Assembly: GCA_007571185.1 (NCBI GenBank)
Contig: RKRX01000207.1
Span: 1 to 30,364 of the forward strand
DNA from: Oceanicaulis sp.
Lineage (GTDB): Bacteria > Pseudomonadota > Alphaproteobacteria > Caulobacterales > Maricaulaceae
DNA length: 30,364 nt
Direction of reading: 5' to 3'
The position numbers and the translations under genes were made by a program. This document shows, in pieces, positions 12,428-29,102 of this stretch (its first letter is position 1; each line of letters begins with the position of its first letter). The notes beneath the pieces were generated by a model, which was given only the letters and a program-made list of their open reading frames with translations, made no database searches and was not told where the DNA came from.

Positions 12428-13615
12428 TCAGACCAGCGCTTTGATCTGGTCGACCAGATCAGTCTTTTCCCACGAGAAACCGCCATCAGCGTCGGGCGTC
12501 CGCCCGAAATGACCATATGCGGCGGTACGCTCATAGATCGGGCGGTTCAACCCCAGATGGGTGCGAATGCCCCGCACACTCAGATCGACCATTTCTGGCA
12601 GGACTTTTTCTAAGATAACATCGTCAATCTCACCAGCGCCATGCGTGCTTACATATACAGATAGCGGTTTGGCCACACCGATCACATAGCTCAACTGGAT
12701 TGTGCATTTACGGGCAAGCCCCGCGGCCACAACATTTTTCGCCAGGTAACGGGACACATAGGCTGCCGAACGATCCACCTTTGTGGGATCTTTGCCAGAG
12801 AACGCTCCGCCGCCATGGGGCGCGGCGCCGCCATAAGTGTCCACGATGATTTTGCGGCCGGTCAGACCGGCATCACCATCCGGACCGCCAATCACAAACT
12901 TGCCAGTGGGATTAACATAAAACTCGTCTTCAGGCGGGAACCAGCCCTCGGGCAATACTGAAATCACCGCAGAACGCACCAGCTCACGCACATCATCGGG
13001 ATTGACGCTTTCTTTATGTTGGGTGGAAACCACCACGCTGGCTACATCCACCGGGCGGCCGTTTTCGTAGCGCAGGGTCACCTGGGACTTGGCGTCAGGC
13101 CCGAATTCAGGTCGCTCACCGGTTTTGCGCTGACGAGCCATTTCTTTAAGTATCTGATGAGAATAACTGATCGGCGCTGGCATGAGTTCAGGGGTTTCGT
13201 CACAGGCATAACCGAACATGATGCCCTGATCGCCCGCTCCTTCTTCGAGAAAAAGGCCGGCGCCAGCATCGACACCCTGGGCGATATCAACGGATTGTTC
13301 ATGCAGATAGTTATCAACATGCACAGTTTTCCAGTTAAAACCGTCTTGCTCATAGCCGATTTCGCGCACAGCCCGGCGAGCAGCGTCCTCAATCTCATTG
13401 TGGTCGATCTGACCCGCGCAGCGCACCTCTCCCGCCAGCACAATCCGGTTCGTGGTTGTCAAGGTCTCACAGGCCACACGCGCCACCGGATCCCTGGCCA
13501 GAAACAAATCCACCATCGTATCAGAAATACGGTCACAAACCTTGTCGGGGTGCCCCTCAGACACACTTTCACTTGTGAAAAGACAGGACGAACGAGCCAA
13601 GAGCGTGCTCCACAT
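12428..13615 (-). CDS. metK: S-adenosylmethionine synthetase
   Basis: MetK makes S-adenosylmethionine from methionine and ATP. The product (395 residues) shows [20 protein letters not shown] at the N-terminus, the signature [12 protein letters not shown] and the phosphate loop [16 protein letters not shown]. The start is uncertain. The ATG at 13615 lies inside an inverted repeat and has no clear Shine-Dalgarno sequence. A TTG at 13600 (giving [12 protein letters not shown]) is preceded by GGAGC at seven bases and gives a more usual N-terminus. SAM made here would serve TrmB and, in principle, the methyltransferases of the adjacent glycan cluster. Confidence 0.95.
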
Positions 13616-13752: not shown

Positions 13753-14616
13753 TCACACATCCCCGGGAATAAAAGCGGGATTTTCCGCAACCAGAACGCC
13801 ATCACCGATCTTGATCAGGCCATAGGGCGTGTCACAGAGCTGACCACGTTCATAGTCCACACGGATACGCCAGCCCCGATCGCGAAACAGAGCCACCATA
13901 GCGTGGTGACGTCCAGAGGAAATATGCGTGCCTATGAGCACGGCTTTCGCTCTCGCCTTCACCAACGCCATAGCGTGGGGAAGAACGTCATATTCCACAC
14001 CCTGAACATCCATGTGCAGAAAGTCCACAGGCCCTGAGAGACGGCCGAAAACATCCTCCAACGTGTACTGCGGCACCGTCACCGTGGCGGCGGCCTGCCC
14101 AGCCTGACGCAAGGATGCCCCATAATCCTCATCGGGGTTCTCAATCACCGGGAAGGATATTTCCCCGGTTTCAGCGCCGAGAGCGCCATGGATCAGGCTC
14201 ACGCCATCGCCGTTCAAGCCGTTGATCTCAAAGTGCTCTTTCATGAACGCATAGTGTACGCTATCGGCCTCCACGGCGATGGCTTCCACATCAGTGATCG
14301 CAGACCGTTGGCGGCAGGCGGCCAGCGCCGCTGACGTCCATGGGCCCCAACCTGCACCAAGCTCCACAAAGCGATAGGCGCCCTCAGCGCGCAACACGCT
14401 TTCCAGAACCGCCACCCAGTCCAGATAATGCTCGTTCACCACCGGAAACCCCGGCGTCATTCTGGCGCCTGCAGGCGGTGCAAATTTCACCCAGCCCTTC
14501 TTGTACCGGACCCGTGTAGCGAGCCCCAGAAAATTGTATACGCTGCGCCCATCCGCCTCGATTTCAACAGGATTGAATGCCTGAAACACCGGATCCTGTT
14601 TGTACTTGCCCATCAT
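13753..14616 (-). CDS. FkbM-family methyltransferase
   Basis: The 287-residue product is a SAM-dependent methyltransferase of the FkbM type, a group that often O-methylates sugars of surface glycans. The SAM-binding loop is VELGAGWGPWTSAAL (about 84-98), an acidic residue follows in AIAVEAD, and the FkbM-typical HMDVQGVEYDVL motif lies near 197-208, with a preceding TLEDVFGRL segment. It starts nine bases after the large glycosyltransferase gene, with GAAGGA upstream; two adjacent ATG codons are possible starts. It is the last gene of the glycan cluster. The acceptor is unknown. Confidence 0.85.
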   Translation of the reverse strand: MMGKYKQDPVFQAFNPVEIEADGRSVYNFLGLATRVRYKKGWVKFAPPAGARMTPGFPVVNEHYLDWVAVLESVLRAEGAYRFVELGAGWGPWTSAALAACRQRSAITDVEAIAVEADSVHYAFMKEHFEINGLNGDGVSLIHGALGAETGEISFPVIENPDEDYGASLRQAGQAAATVTVPQYTLEDVFGRLSGPVDFLHMDVQGVEYDVLPHAMALVKARAKAVLIGTHISSGRHHAMVALFRDRGWRIRVDYERGQLCDTPYGLIKIGDGVLVAENPAFIPGDV

Positions 14617-14625
14617 TGTTTTCCT

Positions 14626-16458
14626 TCAGGCCGACATCAAAGATAAAATATCGGACACGAAATTGGCACGACCGTAGCGTGCCTTAATCAGGGTCAGCGC
14701 CGCCTGGCGCCGACGGAGGGTGTCTAGGTCAGAACCCAGCGCCTCCAGCCGCTCCGGCAGGGCACGGACACTGGCCCGATCTTCCGCACACTGAACAACA
14801 CCCTGTTCCCAGATCAGTTGGGATCCTGGCGCCTTGTAATTGTCAGACAGAACAACGGGCACGGCCCCATTAGCGATAGCTTCCCATAAACGGATTGAAT
14901 TGGGCCCCGTCCCTGAGGGACATAACGCAAACCTAGTCTGCTCCATGATATGACGAAACTCGGCAGAGGCTTGCATATCCACAGAATTTTCATCGGTCCC
15001 GGTTTTGTTGAACACCTGCCGGTCATAAACGATTTTGTTATAGTGCCAGGATTCGCGATCTCGCACATAGCCGCGAGGGTCGTCACCGAGCTCCTCAAGC
15101 ACATAGGTGCGGGATCGGGTCAGATAGAGATCAGTGCCTCGCGCTCCTACAAACGAGAATAGATATTGGCGAGTCTGCAACGGTATCGCGACACTGTCGG
15201 AAACCTGAACCGGATATAGTGGAAACGGATGAATGGCCATGGACCTGTCTGCACCAAAGCAGATGCGATCATGGGTGGCGTGCGCCCAGAACACATCCGT
15301 TACGCCTGATTCTTCAAAAAGTGCGACAAATTCCAGCATGTGAATATGCTGGCAGACGGTCACGATCCGATCATAACTGCGCAAGGCGTCAGCCGCCCGC
15401 GCCAACCCGTTCTTAAGTTCAGACAAACGGTCCATATCCGATTTGTTGTGATTTGTTACATCAACCAGGGTCGCCCAGGGAAAGCCCAGATAAGCGACCT
15501 TACCGCCACGCTGCGCCAGTCGCCGAATCTGATTGAATGCATGCTGTTCGGTAATGGCGGGATACTGCCAGTGCGCGTCATATCCCGCCACATTCCGGTC
15601 CCGATACAGGCCCCCGCTCCGGCGATCCGCGTTGGGCGAACCTTCAATACGGGTAACAGGCAAAGCCCTCTTCGTGCAATCGGGAGCGTGCCGGACGGGT
15701 GTCTGCGTACCACGCTCCTGCGCCCATTTCTCAAGAGTCGAGTTTAATCTGACGGACGGAAATTTATCGGTTCGGACCGGCCACATCTCAATGTCGAGCC
15801 GGGCCGAATCGGTCAATCCGTCACCAGGGTGCACCATGGCCATGCCGCCTACGATCCGCATATCGCCTTTTTTGTCATAGGTGCGGATGCCGGTGTCGTG
15901 CACATGGATGCTACGCACATGGCGGCAGGGATTGTAAAGCGTGTGACCATAGATCGCGAAAGTATAGGCAACCTTGTTATCACAACGCGGCGTTCCCAGC
16001 GGAAAATTCAAGCACCGATCCCGGTCCGGGTTACAGGCGTGCGCGGGCGCATAGGCCCAAACATCCTGCGACCAGTGTGGATCTGGATGCAGAACTGGTT
16101 GATCGTCTTCAAGTTCATGACGACTGAGGGCCACAAAACCGGTGGGATCATGTTCAAACACCGTCTCCAGCGCGTTGAGGGTATCGTCAAAGTAGATATC
16201 GGCGTTCGCGAGTACCGAAATATGATCGGGGCAGTACGCTTCGGTCAGCTGCGTCCAGTCCTGATAGGTCGGACGATGGTCCATGCGAATGACCGTAACC
16301 CGTCCATCCTCCAGCGCGATCTCCGCCCCGTCATCAACCATAAGATAGACATGCGCAATCGACGCATTCTGTCTGTTCTTCTCGAGGCAAAGTCCAAGCT
16401 CTTCACGTCGGGCGGGGTCGGTGGGCCTGAAATAGGGTGCAAACAGGGAAATGGGCAC
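14626..16458 (-). CDS. Two-domain glycosyltransferase with C-terminal exostosin (GT47-like) domain
   Basis: The 610-residue product joins two apparent sugar-transfer domains. The N-terminal part (about 1-200) begins ISLFAPYFRP and carries NADIYFDDTL near residue 84, a DxD-like element typical of GT-A folds. The C-terminal part (about 290-605) resembles exostosin-like glycosyltransferases, with the region RFALCPSGTGPNSIRLWEAI followed by ANGAVPVVLSD near residues 520-555. The start is GTG with CAGGAG about ten bases upstream, three bases after the preceding sulfotransferase. No signal peptide or membrane segment is evident, so it probably acts in the cytoplasm. Donor and acceptor cannot be read from the sequence. 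Confidence 0.75.
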   Translation of the reverse strand: MPISLFAPYFRPTDPARREELGLCLEKNRQNASIAHVYLMVDDGAEIALEDGRVTVIRMDHRPTYQDWTQLTEAYCPDHISVLANADIYFDDTLNALETVFEHDPTGFVALSRHELEDDQPVLHPDPHWSQDVWAYAPAHACNPDRDRCLNFPLGTPRCDNKVAYTFAIYGHTLYNPCRHVRSIHVHDTGIRTYDKKGDMRIVGGMAMVHPGDGLTDSARLDIEMWPVRTDKFPSVRLNSTLEKWAQERGTQTPVRHAPDCTKRALPVTRIEGSPNADRRSGGLYRDRNVAGYDAHWQYPAITEQHAFNQIRRLAQRGGKVAYLGFPWATLVDVTNHNKSDMDRLSELKNGLARAADALRSYDRIVTVCQHIHMLEFVALFEESGVTDVFWAHATHDRICFGADRSMAIHPFPLYPVQVSDSVAIPLQTRQYLFSFVGARGTDLYLTRSRTYVLEELGDDPRGYVRDRESWHYNKIVYDRQVFNKTGTDENSVDMQASAEFRHIMEQTRFALCPSGTGPNSIRLWEAIANGAVPVVLSDNYKAPGSQLIWEQGVVQCAEDRASVRALPERLEALGSDLDTLRRRQAALTLIKARYGRANFVSDILSLMSA

Positions 16459-16461
16459 CGA

Positions 16462-17421
16462 TCAGTACTCCTGATGCTCGACATCGCTTCCAGGCCCTGC
16501 GGTGCGCGAGATCGGCAAAACCTCCAGTGCAGCCTCATACCCCAAACGCGCACACAATGACCGATAACCTTGACTGTCGGCAGCCTCTTTAACCAGATCG
16601 CTGGTGTAGATGCGGCGGCAACGTGGCGTGATCTTGTGGCTGCGTCGCCCGCTGTCCCCCGACAGATTCATGACGCAGATGAGCATTTTCCAGTCTGGAT
16701 TGAACCGCAGCTCCAGGATGTCACAAATTTCCCGCATGCTGCGGTCAGGGTCTTCGGTAAACGTTTCATATCGAATCAGTGGTAGATCCGAGTGAGCGTC
16801 CAGAAAAGCCAGATAGCGGATCGCATACTCTTCCAGACAGAAAGGAGAGAAATGCCGCCAGTCATTCCACGCCAGCGCCAGCCAGGAATCAATGGGATGG
16901 CGGACAGTCACGATTGATCGCACCGGCGCCAACTCTTCAACCATTTCACGCAAGCCGGGCCGCTCCCGCCAGGGTGTCTCGGTACAGAACCTAGAATGGG
17001 CATGATCTCGTAATACCAGGTTCCGCCCAGTACGGGATAGACGCTCATAAAGCGCACCAATTGAGGCCCTGAACATGGATACGGCTGTGTCGGTGTCAAT
17101 CGGATTGCGCACATTGCGCGCCAGCAGGATGGGGTCTGTCGGTGCAAACCGGGACTGTCGGGTCTTTGTATGAAGACTGCTGAGCGGATCCACCTCGCTG
17201 AGTACTAGGGTATTAGGCTGGGACTGCACCCCCTTCGAAAACAGCGTCCCGCCCGTGCAGGCGAAATGATGCACTGTGCGAATCGGTGCAGGGTCCGAAC
17301 GTGGCCTCCGATCCAGGATTGCGACCAGCCGGGTCAAGTTCTCAACCGGCAAGCGACGCACACCCTCCACATCGGGAAGAATCGCGCCCTGTCCGTCAGC
17401 ATATCGGGTTAAGTTATCCAT
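16462..17421 (-). CDS. Sulfotransferase-like protein
   Basis: From the chosen ATG the product is 319 residues. The 5'-phosphosulfate-binding loop of PAPS-dependent sulfotransferases is seen as HHFACTGGTLFSKGV (51-65), and the 3'-phosphate-binding segment as IVTVRHPIDSWLALAWN (170-186), followed by RYETFTEDP. The acceptor is unknown but is likely a sugar, given the neighbours. The ATG at 17421 overlaps the end of the preceding gene by eight bases (ATGGATAA). An upstream start at 17541 would add 40 basic residues lying over the preceding gene and is less likely. Confidence 0.8.
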   Translation of the reverse strand: MDNLTRYADGQGAILPDVEGVRRLPVENLTRLVAILDRRPRSDPAPIRTVHHFACTGGTLFSKGVQSQPNTLVLSEVDPLSSLHTKTRQSRFAPTDPILLARNVRNPIDTDTAVSMFRASIGALYERLSRTGRNLVLRDHAHSRFCTETPWRERPGLREMVEELAPVRSIVTVRHPIDSWLALAWNDWRHFSPFCLEEYAIRYLAFLDAHSDLPLIRYETFTEDPDRSMREICDILELRFNPDWKMLICVMNLSGDSGRRSHKITPRCRRIYTSDLVKEAADSQGYRSLCARLGYEAALEVLPISRTAGPGSDVEHQEY

Positions 17422-18541
17422 CCGCCGAAGTCCGCCCGGAGCTGTCCGTCGCAAGCGCGGTCGTTTTCGCTCTTTCCGACTGGTCAGTGGCGACGGTGGC
17501 GATCTCGGCCCGCAGGCGAGCCGCGAAAACTTCGAGCACACGCTCTAGTTCGGTCTTTTCTTTAAGAAGGTCCGCATGTTGCGCCTGGAGATCGGACACA
17601 TCCGCCTGGGCAAGCCGTTGCAGGCGCAATGACAAGCGGTTATCCTCGCGCAGTTTTTCTATCTCGGCGTTGAGGCGCTGCTGGCTCTGACGCTCCGCCT
17701 CTAACGTATCCGCCAACCCGGAATGCTGGGCGCGCAGTTTTTCTATCTCGGCGTTGAGGCGCTGCTGGCTCTGACGCTCCGCCTCTAACGTATCCGCCAA
17801 CCCGGAATACTGGGCGCGAAGATCAGAATGGCTCTGACGCTCCGCCTCTAACGTATCCGCCAACCCGGAATGCTGGGCGCGAAGATCAGATACGTCTGTT
17901 TCAAACTCTTTCGCACGTCGCTCCCAGTCCGGTGCAATGACGCCTTCCATGATCTCCGGGTCCGGCGACCCGGCGCGCCAGTTTACTTTGAAGGCATGTT
18001 CATCAAGCCAAGCCTGAACCTCGGCAAGCCCGGCGCCGCCCTCATGAAGCGGGGCCCGGGCGATCTTCACCACGATCAGTTCAAAAGCCCCAAGCAGATC
18101 CGCTTCGTGCAGATCAGACAGCACCAAAAGCACCTCCGAAGGCGCTTCAATCACCAGCCCGCATCCTCTCTGCTCAGGCCTGCTCATATGATCGCGCACC
18201 AAGCGGCGCGGGGTGAGCGCCCGCACCGACAGGGTCCGAAGAGTGCTCAGACCGGGGAACAGTTCCAGCGCACCGGTCGGAGCGCGCGTGCTGCTGAGGG
18301 GGGCGTGGCGCGTGCAGTTCAGACGCGCCCAACCTGTCCGGGCCGCAACCGCGGCCTGGACTGTTTCCCCCCCGCCGTGGGCCTCAAGCCAGGTTTCAGC
18401 TTGAACAGCCGCGACGGGATCAGGCTCAACCAAAACCACATGTTCAGCCTTAGCGCATAACTCTTTCCAGCCCTGCGCACCGGCCCCGATGTGCAACAGC
18501 AACGGCATGGACGGGATCAGCATATCCCCAACCCGTTCCAT
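17414..18541 (-). CDS. Degenerate FkbM/methyltransferase-like domain fused to a tandem-repeat coiled coil
   Basis: The 375-residue product starts with a Rossmann-like segment, LLLHIGAGAQGWKELCAKA and VVLVEPDPVAA (about 14-45). Later comes LIVVKIARAPL (155-165), occupying the place of the FkbM KIDVEG motif but lacking its acidic residues, so catalysis is doubtful. From about 205 to 345 it is a predicted coiled coil. Residues 220-296 consist of three tandem units beginning LRAQ[HY]SGLADTLEAERQS, of 21, 28 and 28 residues, that is three, four and four heptads. The ATG shares one base with the preceding stop (TGATG); a GTG one codon earlier is also possible. It may be a scaffold for the glycan enzymes around it. 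Confidence 0.65.
   Translation of the reverse strand: MERVGDMLIPSMPLLLHIGAGAQGWKELCAKAEHVVLVEPDPVAAVQAETWLEAHGGGETVQAAVAARTGWARLNCTRHAPLSSTRAPTGALELFPGLSTLRTLSVRALTPRRLVRDHMSRPEQRGCGLVIEAPSEVLLVLSDLHEADLLGAFELIVVKIARAPLHEGGAGLAEVQAWLDEHAFKVNWRAGSPDPEIMEGVIAPDWERRAKEFETDVSDLRAQHSGLADTLEAERQSHSDLRAQYSGLADTLEAERQSQQRLNAEIEKLRAQHSGLADTLEAERQSQQRLNAEIEKLREDNRLSLRLQRLAQADVSDLQAQHADLLKEKTELERVLEVFAARLRAEIATVATDQSERAKTTALATDSSGRTSADG
17654..17884 (-). repeat. Tandem in-frame repeats, 84/84/63 bp, within the coiled coil
   Basis: Units at 17654-17737 and 17738-17821 are both 84 bases and differ at about two positions by eye. The unit at 17822-17884 is a 63-base version lacking the last part. All three keep frame and heptad phase. 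The near identity implies recent duplication or slippage. Confidence 0.9.
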
Positions 18542-19479
18542 CACCGGGCGTCTCCTTTAACCTTGCCGCCCGCGCCGCGGATTGTTCTCAGAGGCGCGGT
18601 GACCTTCCATGAGGTGGAACTGCGCATCTGCGCCAGCGCACTGCGATGCTCATCACTGTCTTTGCGCGCCCATTCCAGCGCCTTGGTCGCCGCCGCCAGC
18701 TCGTCCTTCAAATCATCACACTGATGTTGCAGCGCGATCACTTCATGCTCAAGTTTTTTCTGGCGCACCACATCAGGCTTGCCAGCCGTCATTTCCTGAT
18801 ACCATTCCAGCTCCTGCTCACAGGCGAGCAGTGCAGATTGGAAGGCGGCGATTGTTTCACGCTGTGCGTCAAGCGTTTCGTCACAGACACTGTCCGATGA
18901 GAACCTTGGTGAATCGGAGCGTGCAAATGCCCCGATCGCTGCAAGTGCAGCCCCCGCACGCGCGGCAAGCGCCGCCTCGTCATAAACGATCGGGCTGAGA
19001 CAAGCCTCCAGCTCGTCAGACAATCCGCTGAGCACAGGCTGTGATCGAAGCAGGCTGGGCGCGATCAGTGTCTGACGCAAGATGCCCGTGTGCGGGACCG
19101 GACAGGTCTCCCCTTTCACGCTGAACACCGGGATGATGCGACTTTCAAAAAAGCGCGCGGCCGTCTTTTCAAGTTCGACTTCGGGTAGATGACCGGCGTC
19201 GGCGGGGATCAGAAGCACGCGGCGGCGATGCTTGCGATGAAGCCCCAACAGCACAGACAGGCGCTCCTGAACAAAAGACAAAGCCTTATCGGGCTCCATG
19301 CCCCGGTACAGGGCGTGGCCCAGCAATTCTGGCGCGGGCGCGCACCAGATCATCAAACATTGCGCAGCATGCTCCTCAAGGCGAGCCAGAAGATCAGCCG
19401 GATCAAAAGCGACAAGCAGCGCCCGGTGCTCTTCGCTCAGGTGGTTACGTAACCCGTCAAATGAGAGCGTGTAAAGCAA
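18541..19479 (-). CDS. Uncharacterised glycan-cluster protein with C-terminal coiled coil
   Basis: The 312-residue product has no domain I can name. The N-terminal 190 residues look globular (LLVAFDPADLLARLEEHAAQ, CLMIWCAPAPELLG, RRRVLLIPADAGHLPE). The region of about 205-290 is a coiled coil (ALLACEQELEWYQEMT, HEVIALQHQCDDLKDEL). It ends with SSTSWKVTAPLRTIRG, a segment commonly found at the end of coiled-coil regions in glycosyltransferases and polysaccharide-locus proteins. The start is TTG with GAGGGAG about eight bases upstream. The C-terminal stop overlaps the start of the next gene. It may be an adaptor or length-control protein; that is inference from context only. Confidence 0.6.
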   Translation of the reverse strand: MLYTLSFDGLRNHLSEEHRALLVAFDPADLLARLEEHAAQCLMIWCAPAPELLGHALYRGMEPDKALSFVQERLSVLLGLHRKHRRRVLLIPADAGHLPEVELEKTAARFFESRIIPVFSVKGETCPVPHTGILRQTLIAPSLLRSQPVLSGLSDELEACLSPIVYDEAALAARAGAALAAIGAFARSDSPRFSSDSVCDETLDAQRETIAAFQSALLACEQELEWYQEMTAGKPDVVRQKKLEHEVIALQHQCDDLKDELAAATKALEWARKDSDEHRSALAQMRSSTSWKVTAPLRTIRGAGGKVKGDAR

Positions 19480-19590
19480 TAGTCCGGCTCCCTCAGCGTT
19501 TGAACGCGAACATATTAGCCCCTCACTCCTCTCGACACCACTGCCCTTTCAGAGCGATCCAGACCCGAGCCCGGTCGGGCACGGCGGCGC
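19480..19590. other. Spacer inside the glycan cluster
   Basis: This 111-base gap is the only large one within the minus-strand glycan cluster. It holds the GAGGGAG site for the downstream TTG start and a small CCCGA...TCGGG inverted repeat with no T-run. An internal promoter is possible, but none was identified. Confidence 0.3.
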
Positions 19591-20550
19591 TTACCGGTTT
19601 TCAAACGCTCGTTGAACACTCGCCCACCAGTATTCAATTCCCAAACGTTCAAGAATCATCTCCCGCTGGACCCTCATAAAACCGGTCCGAAAATACCGGG
19701 TGAACCAGGTCTCAATCTTGGCCGGGCAAAGCGCCTGCTCAGTCCAGTCCCCTACAGTCACAACCGGAAATGCCGCATAAGCCTCACTGACTGCGGTCCG
19801 ACGGATGATCGGCACCGCCCCGTTCAACAAAGCCTTCCATGCCTTTGGAGAGGGGTCTAGCCCTCCGCCTTCCACACACAGAACAAAGGCATGGTTGTGA
19901 ATCAGCGCCTCATATTCAACCTCGTCAACAGGAGCTTCCAGTACAGTTGTGAAGGGGCGCCAGTGCGACCTGGCCAATGCCGTGACGGTCCTGCGAGGCT
20001 CCCACTGCGCTCCCTCGCGCACGCGGTGGGCGCACAGAACGCGGCGATACCGATCCGCCGTCCGGCCCCATTCGGGTGCGGTCAGCGTGGCCGGGATTGC
20101 ATCGGAATCGGGATAAACCATGCCCAACGGCAGGGGGCGAACTTTAGGATGAAAACAGGTGTCGAGGTTTTCACAAAACCAAGCGAGCAGGAGTGGATGC
20201 TTGGCCAGTTTGAATAACCGCTCCCGCATGAGACCGGGCAGGGCTGGCCAGCGCTTGTCTACCTGATGAGGAAGCGTGACGTCTTCTGATCCGGTGATCA
20301 GCACAAAGGGTCGATGGAGCTGGGGCAAGACGGTGTCAAGAAAATACGTCAGGGCATACTCATGCGCCCGCAAGGAGACGAACACGGTTCGAACTGAGTC
20401 TGGATCGGTTTGTAGCCGATCGGCCACATGAGGCTCGACCCGATCGCTGAGCACCACCCGGTCACAGCGCGCTGCAATCCCGGTGAGCACATAGGCCTCC
20501 GCCCCCTGAAATTTGGGGAACAACCGTGTGCTGTGCGGTGTGAACCCCAT
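19591..20550 (-). CDS. Exostosin-like glycosyltransferase
   Basis: From the ATG at 20550 the product is 319 residues. The C-terminal half shows the exostosin/GT47-type nucleotide-sugar region: FVLCVEGGGLDPSPKAWKAL followed by LNGAVPIIRRTAVSEAY, the same architecture as in the large glycosyltransferase of this cluster (LWEAIANGAVPVVL). The N-terminal half has RPFVLITGSEDVTLPHQVD. No signal peptide is seen. The start lies one base after the preceding sulfotransferase stop (TGAGATG), so coupling is likely; a longer frame to 20622 overlaps that gene and is less plausible. The sugar transferred is unknown. Confidence 0.75.
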   Translation of the reverse strand: MGFTPHSTRLFPKFQGAEAYVLTGIAARCDRVVLSDRVEPHVADRLQTDPDSVRTVFVSLRAHEYALTYFLDTVLPQLHRPFVLITGSEDVTLPHQVDKRWPALPGLMRERLFKLAKHPLLLAWFCENLDTCFHPKVRPLPLGMVYPDSDAIPATLTAPEWGRTADRYRRVLCAHRVREGAQWEPRRTVTALARSHWRPFTTVLEAPVDEVEYEALIHNHAFVLCVEGGGLDPSPKAWKALLNGAVPIIRRTAVSEAYAAFPVVTVGDWTEQALCPAKIETWFTRYFRTGFMRVQREMILERLGIEYWWASVQRAFENR

Positions 20551-20551
20551 C

Positions 20552-21244
20552 TCAGAGCGCACGGTCGCGTAACCCGTTCCAAACCTCCACAACCGGGGTG
20601 GGCAGCGTATCTCCAGCCTCATTCTGGACGGTCAGAAGGGAAGCGTCGAAAAAACCGGGATCAGTTTTGGATTCAAGATCCAAAGCCTCCAGCAAGTTCT
20701 GTAATTTGACCTTCATCTCCGCTGCGTCCGACACACATTCTATGATAGGAAAATTCAGCTCGTCCCGCCAGTGCAGAAGACGTGCATTATAGGCCAGCCA
20801 TACCTCAAGCCCTGTCCCGATCGGAAATCCGTTCCGACTTTCCAGCGACCGCGCCACCGCCATGGGATGACGGAAAATCCCCAGTGGCCGTGCTTTGGGC
20901 AACACATCCAGCCAACCTTGAAGGGTCAGCAGAGTGCGCGGATCCTTAAACCCCCATTTCTCCATGCCCTTGCGGGATTCAATGAACAGATCGCGTACAG
21001 CAGCATGCAGGGGCGGCCAGTGCAGGGTTTGGGGAGGATTGTCCCAACTGCCGCCGTTAACCTTGAGCAGATCTTCTTGCATGTACAAAACTGCGGGCGG
21101 TTCCTGAAGCCCTTTAGGATTGCGCCTGATGCTCCTGTCCAGAACCCGGCCCAGATACACGCCAGCTTCAAGCAAAGCGCCGGTCAGCGCACTCGTCCCG
21201 CTGCGATGCATGCCCAATACGATATAGCATGTGCTATCAGACAT
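20552..21244 (-). CDS. Sulfotransferase family protein
   Basis: The 230-residue product has a clear sulfotransferase P-loop at the N-terminus, IVLGMHRSGTSALTGALL (8-25). Next comes KWGFKDPRTLLTL (about 96-108), a known conserved segment of this family. The 3'-phosphate-binding motif is GIFRHPMAVARSLESR (about 123-138). Length and motif order fit PAPS-dependent carbohydrate sulfotransferases of bacterial polysaccharide loci. It is the first gene of the minus-strand glycan cluster. The ATG is preceded by GGGGAGAACAGG, and an intergenic stretch separates it from the divergent third sulfotransferase gene. Confidence 0.85.
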   Translation of the reverse strand: MSDSTCYIVLGMHRSGTSALTGALLEAGVYLGRVLDRSIRRNPKGLQEPPAVLYMQEDLLKVNGGSWDNPPQTLHWPPLHAAVRDLFIESRKGMEKWGFKDPRTLLTLQGWLDVLPKARPLGIFRHPMAVARSLESRNGFPIGTGLEVWLAYNARLLHWRDELNFPIIECVSDAAEMKVKLQNLLEALDLESKTDPGFFDASLLTVQNEAGDTLPTPVVEVWNGLRDRAL

Positions 21245-21335
21245 TTTCGCCTGTTCTCCCCAGTCGCCGACCGAAGGCTAACCGAGCTTGGCGACGACGA
21301 CGAGGCATTACAACAGCTGCTCGGATCGCCGCCCC
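21245..21335. other. Divergent intergenic region between two sulfotransferase genes
   Basis: About 90 bases separate the starts of two divergently read sulfotransferase genes, so promoters for both directions are expected here or inside the gene ends. No matched -35/-10 pair stands out on either strand. A TTG at 21288, preceded by GAAGG, is an alternative start for the + strand gene. Confidence 0.3.
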
Positions 21336-22139
21336 ATGTCCCAGTCTCTCCGTTTCCATGCAATGTCCCCCCATCCCCATGTCATGGTCGTCGGCGGGCT
21401 GGGAGGGTCAGGCACGCGGGCCATCGCCGGGGCCATCGAACGGCTGGGTTACGCCCATGGCCCCGCTCTCAACATGTCCCGGGATTGCCTGACCTTTACC
21501 TATCTGTTCGTGCGCACCGGGTGGATGCCTGCCCCTATGCCCAACAAGAGGGATCGACTAGATCAGCTTCGGCGCATAACCGAAGACGGCCTTCAGCCGG
21601 ATCAACCGGAGTTTAAAGCTCTGTCAAACGCCGTGACCTGTTGGACAGCTCCAACGGGATCGGATCCTTTCCTGATCAAGGAACCCAATACCTGGATTTT
21701 TGCGGACACGATTCTGGAACACTGGCCTGACGCGGCCTTCGTGTTCGTGCATCGCAACCCGCTGGACATGGCGGTCAACCAAAACACCAATCAGCTCAAA
21801 CGCTGGGGCCCGGAGCGTGGAATCGACCCGGTCCGCCTAGGTTCCGTTCCCGCCGCACAGCTTGCTCTATGGATTGACGCCTATAAGCAGCAACAGGCTC
21901 GAATGAAGCGTTTTGCCAATCGCACCACCCTGCTGGATTATGACGCTTTCGTGTGTGCTCCCGAAGACCACCTGACAGAGCTGTTCACCCGGCTTGGTAG
22001 CCGGATTGACCCCAATCTGCTGAGTCAGGCGTGCACAGGCATCATCACGCCCAGCAGCCAAGGCCGAGGCAGGGAAACCGATCTGAGCCTGTTTTCAAAG
22101 GACCAGCTAACGTTCTGTCGAGCCCATGGATGGCTCTGA
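21336..22139 (+). CDS. Sulfotransferase family protein (divergent)
   Basis: The product is about 267 residues from this ATG. The P-loop is unusual but recognisable, MVVGGLGGSGTRAIAGAI (about 17-34). Further on are DPFLIKEPNTWIFAD (KEP in place of KDP) and FVFVHRNPLDMAVNQN, the 3'-phosphate-binding region. This pattern resembles bacterial sulfotransferase-domain proteins rather than kinases. The start is uncertain: ATG codons at 21336 and 21363 and a TTG at 21288 are all in frame, and none has an excellent ribosome binding site. It ends three bases before gspF ends on the other strand. It probably belongs functionally with the adjacent glycan cluster. Confidence 0.75.
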   Translation: MSQSLRFHAMSPHPHVMVVGGLGGSGTRAIAGAIERLGYAHGPALNMSRDCLTFTYLFVRTGWMPAPMPNKRDRLDQLRRITEDGLQPDQPEFKALSNAVTCWTAPTGSDPFLIKEPNTWIFADTILEHWPDAAFVFVHRNPLDMAVNQNTNQLKRWGPERGIDPVRLGSVPAAQLALWIDAYKQQQARMKRFANRTTLLDYDAFVCAPEDHLTELFTRLGSRIDPNLLSQACTGIITPSSQGRGRETDLSLFSKDQLTFCRAHGWL

Positions 22140-22142
22140 GAT

Positions 22143-23345
22143 TTAGAGCACGTCGAAGCTGTACAGGCTGGACATGGCCAGAACCAGGCTGATCACGATT
22201 AACCCGATCACTGAAGCAATGAAGCAAATGGCCAAAGGCTCAGTCAGTGCGGTCAACCGTTTGGCCAGGTTACGTGCATCTTGCTCTCCCGTTTCGGCGA
22301 TAAAGAGCAGCATCTCGTTGAGAGCGCCGGACAGCCGTCCGGTACGAATCAAGTTCAGGGTCATGGCGTCAGTATCAGTGTGTACCCTCAGGGCGACCTC
22401 CAGCGGGTCGCCCGAACGAACAGCGCGACGGGCCTGTTCTAACCCCCGGCGGCGTTTATCCGACATCATCCCGCGCTCGGCCAGCTTCAACGCGTCAATC
22501 AGCCCCGCGCCTGCAGACAATGCCGTGCCGGTGATCCGCGCCCAGCGGGCCGTGTCGCTGGTTGACAGAAACCGCCCCAGAACCGGAGTACGCAAAGCTG
22601 CCCGCACCAGGACGCGCCGGGTCCGGGATGCGCGTAACCCCTGCCCCGCCCCCAACACCAGCACCAAGCCGAGGCCCATAACCAGGACCGTATTATTGCT
22701 CAAAAACACTCCGATACTGAGCACTGCACGCGAAAGCGCCGGAATCGAGGCGTCTGCGTTGTCCAGCAGAGCGGAAAAGCGCGGCACCACGAAGAGGAAG
22801 ATAAAGATCACCGCCGCTAATCCAGCGAGAGCCAGAAAGACAGGATAGGACAGGGCATTGCGCACCTCCTCAGCCGAGGCCAGATCACGGCCTATCTGGG
22901 CGGCGACTTCGTTGAGTCGCGCATCGAGAGAGCCTGTCGCCTCACCCAGCTCCACAAGACGCGGCGCATAGTCAGGCAGGGTCGGCATATGCACGGCCAG
23001 CGCCCGGGACAGACGCCCTCCCCCGCGCAATTCTGATCGAATCGCCCGCATCTGCTCAGAGAGTTCCCTGCAAGACTCCTGCTCCAACAGACTGTCAAAC
23101 GCACTCAACAGCGGCGCCCCCGCCTTTAGCAAGGTCGCTAGCTGACGCATGAAGCGATGGTGATCACGAGGCTTGGCCGACTTGCGGGTGAAAGTCCGAT
23201 CCGCACCGTCACTGGCGTTGACTTCATAGGCCAGAATGCCCTGACTGCGCAGCTGACTGACAGCATCATCGCGATCATGAGCGTTGGTCCGGCCCTCGAC
23301 CAAAGCGCCGTCGCGCTTGAATCCCTTATAGGCGAAACTAACCAT
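22143..23345 (-). CDS. gspF: Type II secretion system inner-membrane protein GspF
   Basis: GspF is the polytopic inner-membrane platform protein of type II secretion and interacts with the ATPase GspE. The 400-residue product has the usual N-terminus (FAYKGFKRDGALVEG) and two T2SSF domains, the first starting HRFMRQLATLLKAGAPLLSA and the second after ARWARITGTALSAGAGLIDAL. Hydrophobic segments occur at about 162-188, 215-235 and near the C-terminus (IASVIGLIVISLVLAM). The ATG overlaps the gspE stop by eight bases (ATGGTTAG). It converges tail to tail with a sulfotransferase gene, leaving no room for a dedicated terminator. Confidence 0.95.
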   Translation of the reverse strand: MVSFAYKGFKRDGALVEGRTNAHDRDDAVSQLRSQGILAYEVNASDGADRTFTRKSAKPRDHHRFMRQLATLLKAGAPLLSAFDSLLEQESCRELSEQMRAIRSELRGGGRLSRALAVHMPTLPDYAPRLVELGEATGSLDARLNEVAAQIGRDLASAEEVRNALSYPVFLALAGLAAVIFIFLFVVPRFSALLDNADASIPALSRAVLSIGVFLSNNTVLVMGLGLVLVLGAGQGLRASRTRRVLVRAALRTPVLGRFLSTSDTARWARITGTALSAGAGLIDALKLAERGMMSDKRRRGLEQARRAVRSGDPLEVALRVHTDTDAMTLNLIRTGRLSGALNEMLLFIAETGEQDARNLAKRLTALTEPLAICFIASVIGLIVISLVLAMSSLYSFDVL

Positions 23346-25140
23346 GGTCGGCCCCCTGGCTCAGCGCCGCCTGCGAAGCCGCCGCACCGCCCAGAACGCG
23401 CAGCACTTCTTCCACAGATGTAATCCCGGCGCGCGCCTTGAGCAGACCATCTTGCATCAACGATAGGAATCCCGCCCGACGGGCAGCGTCCTCCACGCCA
23501 GCCCGCCCCCGGCCATGAGCAATCGCTTCTTTCAGATCACCTTCAACCGCGGCAGCTTCATAGACTGCAATCCGACCGGCGTAACCCTGGTTGCGACAGT
23601 GCGGGCAACCCACCGGCGACCGCCAGTTTGCGGGTTCTGACCGTGAGTCTAGAGGCCAGATCACGCCGCGATCAGACGCTTGCGCCATCAGACGCTCGGC
23701 CTCATCAATGCGATCCTGTGAGGCCGGGATGGTGCAATGCGCACACAGACGTCGCAACAGACGCTGAGCCAGCAAGCCACGTAGAGAGGCCGACACCAGG
23801 AATGGTTCCACACCCAAATCGATCAAACGCTCAATGGCCCCCAGCGCGGTATTGGTATGCAGGGTCGAGAGCACCAGATGACCTGTCAACGCGGCCTGAA
23901 TGGCGATGCGTGCGGTTTCCCCGTCACGGATTTCACCAATCATGATCACATCGGGATCCTGACGCAGAATGGCGCGCAAACCACGGGCGAAATCATAACC
24001 GATATCGGCGCGCGCCTGGACCTGGGTGACACCCTCCATATCGTATTCCACCGGATCTTCGATGGTGATAATTTTTCCTGTACCATCATTAACCCGCTCA
24101 AGAGCGCGATAGAGCGTGGTTGATTTACCCGAACCGGTCGGGCCGGTCACGAGGATCACGCCATTGGGTTCGCTGATGACCCGGTCAAACACGGCGCGCT
24201 GGGAACCCTGAAGCCCCAGACCTTCCAGGGACGGCAGTTGCTGTCTCTTGCGCAGCAGGCGCAGCACCAGCGACTCACCCCAGGCGCCGGGCAAGGAAGA
24301 AACCCGCAGGTCGATATCCTGACCGGCGAATCGGACCGTCTGGCGGCCATCCTGCGGTAGGCGGCGTTCGGCGATATCCATGGCCGAGACCAGCTTGATC
24401 CGCGACGCCACGGCATCAAACCGGGATCGGGGCTGGGTCTGCACCAGGCCCAGAACGCCATCCACCCGGAAACGAACCTGGAACTCGTGCTCGAAAGGTT
24501 CGATGTGAATATCGCTGGCGCCATCGCGCAGCGCATCCTCAAACACCGCACTCACGAAATCGATGACAGGTGCTTCCTCCGCCATCTCCCGCAAACGCTC
24601 TACATCCGTCAGCCCAACTTCACGGGTCCGGGCGCCCGCGGTTTGCAACCGAGCAAGCGCGCTGTCAAGCATGCGGTTGGAGCCCAGAACCACTTGCATC
24701 TCACCCCGCCACAACATGCTCAACCGTTCCTGAAGACCGGGATCAAGCGGATCACGCGCCAGCACGACGAGCCGGGCGGCATCTGGCGCGGGGGAAGTCC
24801 GCTCTGGGTATTTTAGTGCTGCGAGTCGGGCCTCATCAGCGCCGGCCCACCACATGACGGCGGTTTTTTCCAACAGCCAGCGCAGCGGCAGTCCCAGCGC
24901 CGCAGGCGCATGGAGATAGTCTGCATCTTCCCGTGGTAAAGCCTCTGCATCGAGAAGCGGGATACCCAGCTGACGGGAGAGCGCTGCAAGCAGGCGCTCC
25001 TCGGCCACCGCGCCCATCCGCAAAAGAGCTTGACCGAACAGAACAGGCGTTTCACGCTGATAAGCCAAAGCCTGATCAATATCGGTTCGGCTGATTGCCT
25101 TTTGCGCCAGTAAAATCTCACCAATGGGATGAGGGATCAT
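23338..25140 (-). CDS. gspE: Type II secretion system ATPase GspE
   Basis: GspE powers assembly of the type II secretion pseudopilus from the cytoplasmic face. The product is 600 residues from the chosen ATG. The N-terminal domain begins HPIGEILLAQKAISRTDID. Walker A is VTGPTGSGKSTTLYRAL (about 328-344), the Walker B region is ILRQDPDVIMIGEIRDGET, and the tetracysteine zinc element typical of GspE is present as CAHC (about 467) and CPHC (about 511). The ATG at 25140 follows GAGAGG by seven bases; a longer frame to 25176 adds 12 residues with no gain in similarity. It is coupled to gspF by an eight-base overlap. Confidence 0.96.
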   Translation of the reverse strand: MIPHPIGEILLAQKAISRTDIDQALAYQRETPVLFGQALLRMGAVAEERLLAALSRQLGIPLLDAEALPREDADYLHAPAALGLPLRWLLEKTAVMWWAGADEARLAALKYPERTSPAPDAARLVVLARDPLDPGLQERLSMLWRGEMQVVLGSNRMLDSALARLQTAGARTREVGLTDVERLREMAEEAPVIDFVSAVFEDALRDGASDIHIEPFEHEFQVRFRVDGVLGLVQTQPRSRFDAVASRIKLVSAMDIAERRLPQDGRQTVRFAGQDIDLRVSSLPGAWGESLVLRLLRKRQQLPSLEGLGLQGSQRAVFDRVISEPNGVILVTGPTGSGKSTTLYRALERVNDGTGKIITIEDPVEYDMEGVTQVQARADIGYDFARGLRAILRQDPDVIMIGEIRDGETARIAIQAALTGHLVLSTLHTNTALGAIERLIDLGVEPFLVSASLRGLLAQRLLRRLCAHCTIPASQDRIDEAERLMAQASDRGVIWPLDSRSEPANWRSPVGCPHCRNQGYAGRIAVYEAAAVEGDLKEAIAHGRGRAGVEDAARRAGFLSLMQDGLLKARAGITSVEEVLRVLGGAAASQAALSQGADHG

Positions 25141-25153
25141 ACTCCCGCCTCTC

Positions 25154-25186
25154 ACCGTCATCCATCCCCGGATCAAACCCGGGGAA
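25154..25186. repeat. Small REP-like palindrome upstream of gspE
   Basis: CCCCGG (25166-25171) and CCGGGG (25179-25184) form a short stem, preceded by CCGTCATCC. This layout resembles the dispersed CGTCATCCCCGG-type palindromes common between genes in alphaproteobacteria. Only one copy is visible, so its repetitive nature is inferred. Confidence 0.35.
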
Positions 25187-25227
25187 CGCGATTAATCTCC
25201 CAAAGGGTCCATTATCGGACAAAAAAG

Positions 25228-25250
25228 AAGGGCGGACCAAGTCCGCCCTT
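25228..25250 (-). terminator. Rho-independent terminator of the exported-protein gene
   Basis: AAGGGCGGAC and GTCCGCCCTT form a perfect 10-bp stem with a three-base loop. On the minus strand it is followed by CTTTTTTG. It lies 25 bases after the stop of the exported-protein gene and separates it from gspE. Confidence 0.9.
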
Positions 25251-25275
25251 CATCCGACACATCCAAGATGATATC

Positions 25276-27126
25276 TTACTCCTCGGGCTCTGGCACCTTC
25301 AGCGTTTCGACAACCTCTCGGACATCGTAGCTGTCAAAGCCTGTACCCCCCACACTGCCATCCCTGGTCAGCAAGCGGACGACTTTCAGAGCACTGGTAT
25401 CGGTTCCATCAGGCAAGGTGATGTCAAGACTAATATCGGCGTTGACACCGCCCTGAGTTCCCAAGAGTTGCGCCAGACCTTCCGTGGTGAAAGTAGCGAC
25501 ATATTCCCCTCCGTTTAGGGGATCCTCTTCGAGATGGACGATTTCCCTACCATCAGACAACAATGGCGCCGGATATATTGTCATCACTGACCCCGTTGGT
25601 GCAACGCCCTCCAGATCACGCCTATAGACGCCATCCAATCTAACCACGATGGCATGGGCTCCCTCGGCAGCGGCATTATCTTCATCGAACAAATGCCCTG
25701 GCCTGGCTTTCATACCGGAGATACGGAACGCCGACCTAGTGCCACCAGAAGGACGCAAAGAGGTCCACGGGAAGGGGCCGACTCTGACCGTTTCCACACC
25801 ATCATCCTCTCCTAAAGTACCTGTGGTAAGCAAACCCAGACCGGGAGAATAATAGCTGCCTCTCTCCGCCGGTTCGAACTCAAACCCAATGTCCTGCGGC
25901 AGAGTATCTTCCGACACCTCTATACCATTGAGACGCAACCGAAACCGAATTGGACTGCCCGATGCCTCTTGCACTGCACTAGCACTCAAAGTACAGGATA
26001 TCCTGAGAGAAACTGGAGTTCCACAGCGCACGCCCGACGTCGGAGCAGGAAGCTGTTCGTTCCCGGCCTGGGTCGGCGTCGGCTCGACACTCGTCGGATA
26101 GACACTTTCAAGACCTCTAGTACCCTCAAATGTAAACCTAACCGTGCTTGTGTCCAACAAGATGTCAGCCAATTCCTTGATGTCAACAAAGTGGTCCCCA
26201 ATGTCCGGTTCGGACGGAAGAGTTTGACTTGTATCGAGGACTTTAATAGGCTTATCGTCTCCGTCTCGCGGCGTCACAAACCTAAACTCCGTGGAGAGCG
26301 CACCCATTAGACCCCACTCATCACTCCTGTACAGATTTGTTTCCGGGTGTCTGGTCCAATCGTCTAGCTCAGACCGCTGGAGCAGAAGAGCGTCCGGCTT
26401 TCCGAGATCTCCTTGTTCTACGTTCGTGCTATAAGGGTAGCTCCCAATGACCCGAACGTACTCTATCAGGGGGAACTCGAAGGATCTGCCAGCATAATTT
26501 ACAGGGGGTGATGATGTGAAGTCAGCCTTAAGAACCACCTTACCCGTACGCAAGGTTTCTGTTTGAGTTGACTTGACAAGGATCTCCAGATTCACAAGTT
26601 GACTTGTCGCTCTAGTTTCGTCAACCCCACACTGATCCACCCTGCTGTTGCTCCTATACACGAGCGTTCTGTCTCCGATGCCTCCTTCCATTACAAAGTC
26701 ACATTCCACGTCTTCGAAATTGATCTCGTCAGGGGCCGACATGAACACAGCATCAGCACCATCGTTCAATGTTAGTTTCATCGTAACCACGGAACCAGAG
26801 CCCACAGTTGTAAACACATCACGGAGTCGCAAAAAGACATCTACATCGCCCTTAATAGTTCCTTGGTACTCACCCGCGACATAGATCGTCCTGTCTCCTC
26901 CCCAATCGTGGTCCGCTGTCCTAACATCAGGGCTGGCTCTCCGATTTCCATCATCGTCGAGCAATGCGACTTCTACACTCGACCCGTTCTGGGGTAGTTC
27001 GAAAAAGTCACACTCCCGTGCGAGCACGCCAGAGCCCGGGGCACAATTGCTTGTGTTTTGGGATACAGCAGCACCCGTTAGAGCCGACATCGCTGCCGCA
27101 CAAAGTATAAACTGACCAAATCTCAT
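25276..27126 (-). CDS. Exported protein of unknown function, 616 residues
   Basis: I do not recognise a family. The N-terminus is a clear signal peptide, MRFGQFILCAAAMSALTGAA, probably cut near AAVS/QN. The mature part is acidic, rich in Asp, Gly, Ser and Thr, looks beta-rich and has six or so cysteines (SNCAPG, ARECDF, VECDFV, DQCGVD, VRCGTP, RISCTL) that could form disulfides. No transmembrane anchor, LPxTG or autotransporter end is evident. The start is decided by a strong AAGGAGG (27135-27141) eight bases before the ATG. The gene has its own promoter, leader and terminator. It uses more A/T-rich and rare codons (AGA, ATA, CTA) than its neighbours, suggesting transfer or fast evolution. 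Its location among gsp genes makes it a candidate type II substrate or accessory protein. Confidence 0.75.
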   Translation of the reverse strand: MRFGQFILCAAAMSALTGAAVSQNTSNCAPGSGVLARECDFFELPQNGSSVEVALLDDDGNRRASPDVRTADHDWGGDRTIYVAGEYQGTIKGDVDVFLRLRDVFTTVGSGSVVTMKLTLNDGADAVFMSAPDEINFEDVECDFVMEGGIGDRTLVYRSNSRVDQCGVDETRATSQLVNLEILVKSTQTETLRTGKVVLKADFTSSPPVNYAGRSFEFPLIEYVRVIGSYPYSTNVEQGDLGKPDALLLQRSELDDWTRHPETNLYRSDEWGLMGALSTEFRFVTPRDGDDKPIKVLDTSQTLPSEPDIGDHFVDIKELADILLDTSTVRFTFEGTRGLESVYPTSVEPTPTQAGNEQLPAPTSGVRCGTPVSLRISCTLSASAVQEASGSPIRFRLRLNGIEVSEDTLPQDIGFEFEPAERGSYYSPGLGLLTTGTLGEDDGVETVRVGPFPWTSLRPSGGTRSAFRISGMKARPGHLFDEDNAAAEGAHAIVVRLDGVYRRDLEGVAPTGSVMTIYPAPLLSDGREIVHLEEDPLNGGEYVATFTTEGLAQLLGTQGGVNADISLDITLPDGTDTSALKVVRLLTRDGSVGGTGFDSYDVREVVETLKVPEPEE

Positions 27127-27332
27127 GGCTAAGGCCTCCTTGAACGCCTCGATGTTGCACCAGCCAGCAGGATCAAACCCCGGCCGTCTTTTCTGACTCG
27201 TAACGCAGACCGCAATCATTGTCAAACACTCAAACTGCAGAACGCGCCAACGCACTCCACCCACACCCGCAGGGCGCTTCGCTCGATCTCGAGAGACCAC
27301 GCGACGTCATACCCCAGCGTCGGTTAATAGCG

Positions 27333-27361
27333 ATATAATCTCCCGAGGTGCCGTCTGTCAA
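27333..27361 (-). promoter_or_regulatory. Sigma70-type promoter for the exported-protein gene
   Basis: On the minus strand a perfect TTGACA -35 (27356-27361) is followed by a 17-base spacer and TTATAT (27333-27338). This is the best promoter match in the window. The predicted start near 27325 leaves a leader of about 200 bases before the ATG at 27126. Confidence 0.75.
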
Positions 27362-27893
27362 ATATAATTGCAGCAAACAACCGCAATTATTCCCAAGAAA
27401 ATCAGAACTGTGATCAATTTGCATCATTCGACGCCTCTACCCCCCCTTGCAGGCGAGCGTTTAATGTGGGGCTATTGCTAAGTCTTTGTTTTTCTGGCCT
27501 CTGATCCTCGAAATGGATGAGCCTTGAGCGCGCGGGTGAGTTTTTATGGTTTTTACGAGGTGTCCATTCTCATGGGCCACTCAGGCTCTCCGCATAATGA
27601 TCGGACGAAAGCCCGAGGCATTCGAAATGTCCATTTTTCTCACTGATTCCTGAAACCTGGCCTAGGGCGGTCGGAAGTCAAACCTCAAGGTTATGATTGT
27701 GTGATCTTGTGAAAAAAAGCTCCAAACGATGGCGCTGAGAGCGATAAGCCGGACGACCCAAGAGCACAACATCGCGCAAAGCGGCGAAAAGGGTGTCTGA
27801 AAATCCCTATGCTCGCTCTTCAAAACCAGGGTCCGAGCCATTCGAAAACGTCTCGCCGGCACCCCAAAATCCCCAAACTCTGGAAGGTTTGAA
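27362..27893. other. 530-base region without a recognisable gene
   Basis: This stretch lies between the promoter of the exported-protein gene and the end of gspH. Frames here are short or continue as shadows of gspH, and none has a plausible start with recognisable protein. A few short similar words recur (GGCATTCGAAA near 27617 and GCCATTCGAAA near 27837; TGTCCATT near 27561 and 27628), but no ordered repeat was found. It may be a decayed gene or upstream regulatory DNA. Confidence 0.4.
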
Positions 27894-28391: not shown

Positions 28392-28523
28392 GGGTCATCG
28401 CCGTGATCTGAACGCCCTCGAGCTGAGCGACTTACCCTTTTAAGAACCAAGATCGTGCGGAAGCACACGCTATTACCACATTACCCACCCCCAGAGCCGC
28501 CAGACAGCAAAATCGTGGATCGC

Positions 28524-28979: not shown

Positions 28980-29102
28980 GACTGCAATCCACAGTTCTTG
29001 ACGATGAGAGCGCAGGCTAGAGTTTGCGTTCAACGAGTGTTATCTGAGTATTTTCCACAGATCATCGCAACCGGTGTACAGAATCGTCGAGCATATGTCA
29101 AG
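28980..29102. other. Divergent region between gspG and the gspJ-like gene
   Basis: These 123 bases should hold promoters for both pseudopilin transcripts. A TTGACG on the + strand (28997-29002) has no matching -10 at 17 bases, and other pairs are weak, so no promoter is assigned. Confidence 0.3.

Follow-up and report, generated by a model that had tools for sequence, protein, structure and literature searches.

What would a bacterium build with three sulfotransferase-like proteins, two glycosyltransferases, a methyltransferase and two coiled-coil proteins encoded side by side? The question is raised by eight consecutive genes (A-H) in a 30,364-nucleotide stretch of Oceanicaulis sp. DNA (Maricaulaceae; GenBank assembly GCA_007571185.1, contig RKRX01000207.1), hereafter the window, which is an entire contig (C42) of a 1.66-Mb assembly in 238 contigs with an estimated completeness of 91.5%. 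An initial annotation had proposed a sulfated-glycan pathway, an idea that our analysis supports and that is strengthened by linkage to the sulfate-activation genes cysD and cysNC in relatives. We lean, by a little, towards a more specific answer, namely that the cluster is the chain-assembly and tailoring module of a sulfated, probably fucose-containing surface polysaccharide exported by an ATP-binding cassette (ABC) transporter of the Wzm/Wzt type. The parts are ordinary and the set is unusual: three sulfotransferase-like proteins occur with a protein combining GT-A and GT47 glycosyltransferase domains, with an enzyme resembling A075L and with an FkbM-like coil protein whose heptads duplicate. 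This set is conserved, and in most relatives examined it is tied to fucose and sulfate activation.

The window contains 68 open reading frames (ORFs) of at least 100 residues, many of them overlapping, of which 28 were scanned against profiles. As the initial annotation had described, eight consecutive genes, mostly tightly spaced, occupy positions 13753 to 22139, seven of them (A-G) on the minus strand and H on the plus strand:

A, 13753..14616, minus strand: FkbM-family methyltransferase of 287 residues (Pfam PF05050, NCBIfam TIGR01444)
B, 14626..16458, minus strand: two-domain glycosyltransferase, GT-A (residues 1-243) followed by a GT47/exostosin GT-B domain (residues 288-610), from Pfam and fold prediction; proposed chain polymerase
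C, 16462..17541, likely start ATG 17421, minus strand: sulfotransferase-like protein (PF13469, below cut-off)
D, 17414..18544, minus strand: FkbM-like domain (fkbM_fam match below cut-off) and a coiled coil that varies in length; putative terminator and ruler of the chain
Within D, 17647..17890, minus strand: in-frame tandem duplications in the coil (Tandem Repeats Finder)
E, 18541..19479, minus strand: conserved coiled-coil protein of no assigned family (no Pfam family over cut-off)
F, 19591..20622, likely start ATG 20550, minus strand: A075L/GT114-like GT-B glycosyltransferase (profile and fold match)
G, 20552..21244, minus strand: small sulfotransferase-like protein (PF13469, below cut-off)
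H, 21288..22139, plus strand: sulfotransferase (PF13469, over cut-off)

A and B are separated by 9 nt, B and C by 3 nt, E and F by 111 nt, and H and the following gspF gene by 3 nt; D and E overlap by 4 nt. The long overlaps of C with D and of F with G disappear if internal ATG starts are chosen, as we have done: a start at ATG 17421 leaves C with an 8-nt overlap with D, and one at ATG 20550 lets F begin 1 nt after G.

The grouping of these genes is more than chance, given an E-D-C-B-A synteny that spans several genera, the position of C beside B in every genome with a full-length B, and the concentration of Sulfotransfer_3 (PF13469) proteins at this locus, which accounts for three of the four matches across the 1.66-Mb assembly, with only one of the three (H) reaching the cut-off. 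Across 137 genomes of the family, B is matched in 11 (full-length in nine, including the window's own), C in 18 and F in 14 (one marginal); C is present in, and adjoins B in, all nine genomes with a full-length B, and F is present in eight of the nine. Fisher tests over the 137 genomes, which ignore relatedness, give p = 1.4e-9 for C with B and p = 4.5e-9 for F with B, the marginal F match in G018 being excluded from the table. The complete E-D-C-B-A order occurs in six of the eight Maricaulaceae relatives with a full-length B: G077 (Maricaulis metagenome-assembled genome (MAG) BWSM_1), G079, G065, G086 (Oceanicaulis sp. HTCC2633, of the window's genus), G029 (MAG RI_462) and G030 (a Hyphobacterium MAG). 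By B sequence, the closest named relatives are Maricaulis, Oceanicaulis sp. HTCC2633, Hyphobacterium and one alphaproteobacterial MAG. In an order-wide sample, B is matched in 20 of 398 genomes, ten of them outside the family, and eight of those ten match by one domain only. The gene-neighbourhood comparison that the initial annotation had suggested thus finds linkage conserved within Maricaulaceae, and this synteny rejects the alternative of a scattered arrangement in relatives.

The predicted glycosyltransferases are B and F. For B the exostosin designation of the initial annotation stands, with a score of 52.9 bits against Exostosin_GT47 (PF03016; cut-off 33.4); what had been overlooked is that fold prediction resolves two glycosyltransferase domains, GT-A and then GT47, an arrangement from which we propose that B may act as a dual-module polymerase. 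The sugar specificity of its GT-A domain is unreadable, as GalNAc-T2, CHSY3, WrtF, K4CP and heparosan synthase fall within about 1 Z of one another in the fold comparison. Homologues of B (about 41%) also occur in Okeania and Trichodesmium (L019, L024, L026), within frames of approximately 1400 residues whose N-terminal extensions look repeat-like by eye. F has no Pfam match, and its profile finds as its closest solved relative the beta-xylosyltransferase A075L (E = 3.6e-15), a match to GT114 in both sequence and fold. A075L, from PBCV-1, transfers xylose onto O4 of L-fucose, using Asp73 as catalytic base and Asn148, Arg158 and Arg208 as donor residues (PMC11571054). The two proteins share about 20% identity; A075L Arg158 aligns with Arg210 of F and Arg208 with Lys260, Asn148 and Asn202 are unconserved and Asp73 lies outside the aligned stretch (a comparison that assumes a chain-numbering offset of 2, which we deduced ourselves). 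This likeness to a fucose-acting xylosyltransferase, likewise missed earlier, suggests that F may decorate the chain with a side sugar, perhaps xylose linked to fucose.

Two of the remaining proteins, D and E, had been described as coiled-coil proteins, which they are; D has two further features that had escaped notice, a weak FkbM-like domain at its N-terminus and a coil whose length varies. We therefore reject D as a featureless coiled coil, since the FkbM-like domain is present: among ten aligned D members, seven match fkbM_fam at E<=0.01, and none has a Pfam methyltransferase match at that threshold. In the window and seven relatives, D ranges from 376 to 609 residues; the coil segment spans 94 residues in the window's D and 143-316 in that of the relatives, and the C-terminal part is constant in size. 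The window's D gene contains in-frame tandem duplications of 84 nt (four heptads) and 63 nt (three heptads) with a 98% match. Tandem Repeats Finder detects repeats in six of eight D genes, all in frame and four with heptad-multiple periods (window, G063, G029 and G030); the period is 96 nt in G065 and, in a short repeat outside the coil, 15 nt in G077, and G079 and G086 have no repeats. The same program finds repeats in none of eight B genes, none of eight C genes and one of seven E genes. By analogy with known terminators, this architecture and its variation in length lead us to propose D as a chain terminator and ruler. E has syntenic homologues of 33-38% identity and no Pfam family over cut-off. 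The FkbM methyltransferase named in the initial annotation is confirmed in A, which scores 35.8 bits against PF05050 (Methyltransf_21; cut-off 22.7) and 62.8 against TIGR01444 (cut-off 37.7).

Of the three proteins that had been called sulfotransferase-like, only H earns the name of sulfotransferase outright, with 51.1 bits against PF13469 (cut-off 27) and profile matches to the structures 2z6v, an unnamed deposit (E = 1.1e-4), and 4gbm, the CurM sulfotransferase (E = 0.0079). We term C and G sulfotransferase-like, because they score below the cut-off but all aligned members, the window's included, match Sulfotransfer_3 at E<=0.01 (7/7 for C, 4/4 for G). Invariant motifs are HHFACTGGTL and VRHPxDS among C members, and LGMHRSGTSAL and FRHPxAVARSL among G members. 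Against solved structures, the C profile reaches E = 0.12 at best and the G profile has no match at E<=1. Homologues of C, 38-46% identical, also lie in nine family genomes without a full-length B (L143-L151; seven in the window's genus), in another sulfotransferase setting. A further genome without B (L152:5161-10641) has an 1826-residue frame near cysD that is most similar to a G-like protein (34%); it carries GT4 and GT2 domains and has no sulfotransferase match at 1e-5. Weak G-like matches occur in similar long frames elsewhere.

Genes for the likely precursors accompany the cluster in many relatives. A gmd-fcl pair, for GDP-L-fucose, scores over NCBIfam cut-offs in HTCC2633 and, by homology to that pair, is found in the same locus in six of the eight relatives, a linkage that had gone unremarked: in G077, G079, G065 and G086 it separates E from F, in G063 (Maricaulis maris DSM 4734) it adjoins E, and in G010 it follows A. 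Outside the family, and as a case of its own, a Rhodobacteraceae MAG (L021) carries gmd and fcl (over cut-offs), B, D, C and a mannose-1-phosphate guanylyltransferase together. The cysD/cysNC genes, for 3'-phosphoadenosine 5'-phosphosulfate (PAPS), are within 30 kb of B in five of the eight relatives, with cysNC 3-28 kb from B in G010, G079, G077, G065 and G086; it is on other contigs in G063, G029 and G030, and a second copy exists only in G010. The window's own genome carries gmd and fcl on contig C121 and cysD-cysNC-cysQ on contig C31. In addition, among the matches listed, 41 family genomes have both a G-like and an adenosine 5'-phosphosulfate (APS) kinase match (weak partial kinase matches left out). 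In 18 of these they are at most 40 kb apart (1.5 expected from random placement in 3 Mb) and in nine at most 20 kb apart (0.8 expected); the 18 include 13 of the 33 genomes without a full-length B. We treat this proximity as a trend and attach no probability to it, given the relatedness of the genomes and the weakness of many G-like matches.

How the product would leave the cell is suggested by genes outside the window. Consistent with the initial annotation, no Wzx, Wzy, Wza or ABC exporter is matched among the 28 window ORFs scanned (no genome-wide search was made for Wza, Wzx or Wzy). The conclusion drawn from this, that the locus is not of capsule type, is not supported by an argument confined to the window: Wzm/Wzt-type genes share the locus in three of eight relatives, following A in G029 and G030 and, in G086, lying near cysD, cysNC, cysQ-like and galU-like genes at a distance of about 22 kb from B, and the window's own genome has a Wzm and a Wzt cut by the contig end at the end of contig C131. 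The best NCBIfam model for these genes is a galactan exporter, with a score below its cut-off. In two genomes with no B match, G031 and G080, the region fetched contains Wzm/Wzt together with F and G. For G077, G079, G065, G063 and G010, the 36-39 kb fetched around B yield no Wzm/Wzt homologue. Contig breaks hide whether the genes on C121, C31 and C131 join the window locus.

Taken together, these assignments can be arranged into a pathway, for which we infer the sugars, linkages, attachment and biological role. GDP-L-fucose from Gmd and Fcl and PAPS from CysD and CysNC, all encoded elsewhere in the genome, would supply the module. B would extend the chain, each of its two predicted domains adding one sugar, and the FkbM-like domain of D, held at a distance by the coiled-coil ruler, would end growth at a set length. 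F could then attach a side sugar, possibly xylose on fucose if the A075L analogy extends to specificity; C, G and H would sulfate the chain and A would O-methylate it. Finally, Wzm/Wzt would export the product, as suggested by the exporter genes on another contig here and in the same locus in three relatives.

Several observations weigh against this scheme. None of gmd, the cys genes or an exporter is in the window; the genome's own gmd and fcl do not sit in the 111-nt gap between E and F, and are found instead on a 5.6-kb contig (C121) that carries no cluster gene. For G029 and G030 neither gene appears in the fetched stretch, and the G030 contig begins within F. The linked cysNC is the sole copy in G065, G077, G079 and G086 and so need not be dedicated to this pathway. 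The gene set is incomplete in G063 (E-D-C-B, without A or F, and with G and H likewise not seen) and G010 (C-B-A, without D or E), and the A frame is short (199 residues) in G065. As for the proteins themselves, C (20.5 bits) and G (22.9 bits) fall below the PF13469 cut-off of 27; the fkbM_fam match of D (E = 1.2e-4 over residues 20-117) reaches 22.6 bits against a cut-off of 37.7, its HIGxG motif has no usual acidic residue, and hhalign gives D and A a probability of 4.5%. Only three of eight relatives have the exporter in the same locus, the relatives' Wzt homologues (256-334 residues) are too short for an O9a-type C-terminal carbohydrate-binding module, and the one Wzt scanned, in L158, has ABC_tran as its sole match at E<=1e-5 and shows no carbohydrate-binding module.

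Other readings must explain the same gene set. The adjacency of F, G and H to the type II secretion genes gspF and gspE, which recurs in several relatives, would fit a sulfated glycan attached to protein, with the cluster glycosylating the pseudopilins or a secreted substrate of that system; so would the distant G128, where a G-like protein (without a Pfam match at 1e-5) and, by eye, a GT2-like protein lie beside gspF and are followed by cysD/cysNC. We regard this as unlikely, given that in the stretches fetched for G063 and L021 the B-D-C set occurs with no gsp match, that F-G occurs without gspF in those of G031, G045 and G087, and that no oligosaccharyltransferase is present among the 28 window ORFs scanned. 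A similarly improbable alternative is that B performs only one or two steps in making a short sulfated oligosaccharide or glycolipid, comparable to Nod factors with methylated or sulfated fucose. No polymerase is identified here by name, and the methyltransferase, sulfotransferase and GDP-fucose genes resemble the rhizobial noeI/noeE/noeL/nolK set; a coil of variable length in D would have no obvious use for a fixed oligosaccharide, and G029 and G030 carry Wzm/Wzt-type genes beside A. A plasmid search with A returned 16 records, all below 60% identity, and none of the annotated ones bears the name NoeI (several are unannotated, and A was not directly compared with NoeI).

The least probable of the alternatives, to our minds, is an ordinary variable surface-glycan island without sulfation, in which C, G and H are remnants or have substrates of another kind. 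The sub-threshold scores of C and G and the patchy distribution of B (11 of 137 family genomes) are what such an island would predict, and the conserved motifs in C, G and H and the enrichment of G-like matches near APS kinase, among the matches listed, speak against it. A bolder elaboration of the exported-polysaccharide reading, which we find rather doubtful, would make B an EXT-like single-chain copolymerase (GT-A plus GT47) and D a tunable FkbM coiled-coil ruler, together yielding a sulfated, methylated, xylosylated, fucose-containing, ABC-exported chain whose length is reset between lineages by heptad duplication, a bacterial counterpart of the eukaryotic sulfated-glycan polymerases. Human EXT1/EXT2, the heparan sulfate polymerase, resembles B in joining GT47 and GT-A in a single protein and in having a sulfated product, as proposed for B; the relationship is distant (15% identity over the GT47 part), and EXT1 and EXT2 carry the two domains in the opposite order.

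Among bacterial systems, one of the closest parallels to an ABC-exported, sulfated polysaccharide module is the WbdA/WbdD pathway for ABC-dependent O-polysaccharides (E. coli O9a; Klebsiella O3/O4/O7/O12), to which the predicted features of the cluster correspond: a protein with two glycosyltransferase domains, a methyltransferase-like domain on a coiled coil and, in three relatives, a Wzm/Wzt-type exporter. In Klebsiella and E. coli, an extended coil protein with terminator function marks this assembly strategy, and WbdA is a dual-glycosyltransferase polymerase (PMC11231755, PMC3482155). The proposed roles of B and D would suit such a sharing of tasks. The present cluster differs in that the FkbM-like domain comes without a kinase, no carbohydrate-binding module is seen on Wzt, the proposed polymerase includes GT47, three genes are sulfotransferase-like and the exporter lies outside the window. 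By our reading it may work like WbdA/WbdD; we do not file it as a member because of the missing kinase domain, the absence of a visible Wzt carbohydrate-binding module and the lack of D in G010. The sulfated capsule locus of Vibrio sp. KMM 8419 combines PAPS genes, sulfotransferases and an ABC transporter, as some relatives do here, a co-occurrence of PAPS genes and sulfotransferases within a polysaccharide cluster that its authors treat as a hallmark of sulfated polysaccharide; that locus has kpsDME/kpsT/kpsS and UDP-glucose and dTDP-rhamnose genes, in contrast to the exostosin-type glycosyltransferases, coil protein and GDP-fucose genes found here (PMC11641403). The Synechocystis xss cluster for synechan, a sulfated exopolysaccharide, also joins sulfotransferases with several glycosyltransferases, but uses Wzx/Wzy and a co-polymerase, and the word exostosin is absent from the main text of its description (PMC8205485). 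F and A075L correspond in their best profile and structure match and in Arg210/Arg158, and differ at the other positions compared above (PMC11571054).

The cluster is set between housekeeping genes and a secretion-like block:

12428..13615, minus strand: metK, the end of a metK-trmB-rimP-nusA-ylxR-infB-rbfA-truB-pnp block on the left (Pfam)
22143..25176, minus strand: gspF and gspE, type II secretion-like, on the right (Pfam T2SSF, T2SSE)

Pseudopilin-like genes follow gspF and gspE, and parts of this type II secretion-like block (22143-30364) recur beside glycan genes in relatives. Within it, a 674-residue protein (25276-27300) has no Pfam match at E<=0.01, and two ORFs (28998-30331), one bearing a prepilin N-terminal methylation motif and the other of 224 residues, lie on the plus strand, opposite gspG and the remaining secretion block. 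We reject the possibility that the cluster is compositionally foreign, its G+C content (0.54-0.62) matching that of the flanks (0.51-0.63). The window has fewer promoter-like sites than its shuffles (2 versus 3.4) and more terminator-like sites (15 versus 7.8). The assembly, at 1.66 Mb, is smaller than same-genus genomes (2.8-3.4 Mb), and may represent a reduced genome or an incomplete bin.

The general idea of such a pathway is not new, as sulfotransferases clustered with glycosyltransferases in a brown-alga-associated alphaproteobacterium have already been read as a sign of sulfated exopolysaccharide synthesis (PMC4110880). A 2021 paper on synechan described sulfated polysaccharides as exclusive, among bacteria, to cyanobacteria (PMC8205485); sulfated capsules were later reported in Vibrio (PMC11641403) and Cobetia. 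Among the titles and abstract openings listed by searches of the open literature, none describes the present cluster, which we are inclined, if only just, to regard as a variant of ABC-exported sulfated polysaccharide assembly that is new in its gene set. Bacterial sulfated polysaccharides outside the cyanobacteria are little studied, and the locus is present in named strains: HTCC2633 carries it with GDP-fucose, PAPS and exporter genes, and M. maris DSM 4734 with GDP-fucose genes and without A and F. Its interest lies in candidate sulfotransferases, in a polymerase that may be a bacterial EXT-like enzyme, and in putative rulers whose lengths form a natural series.

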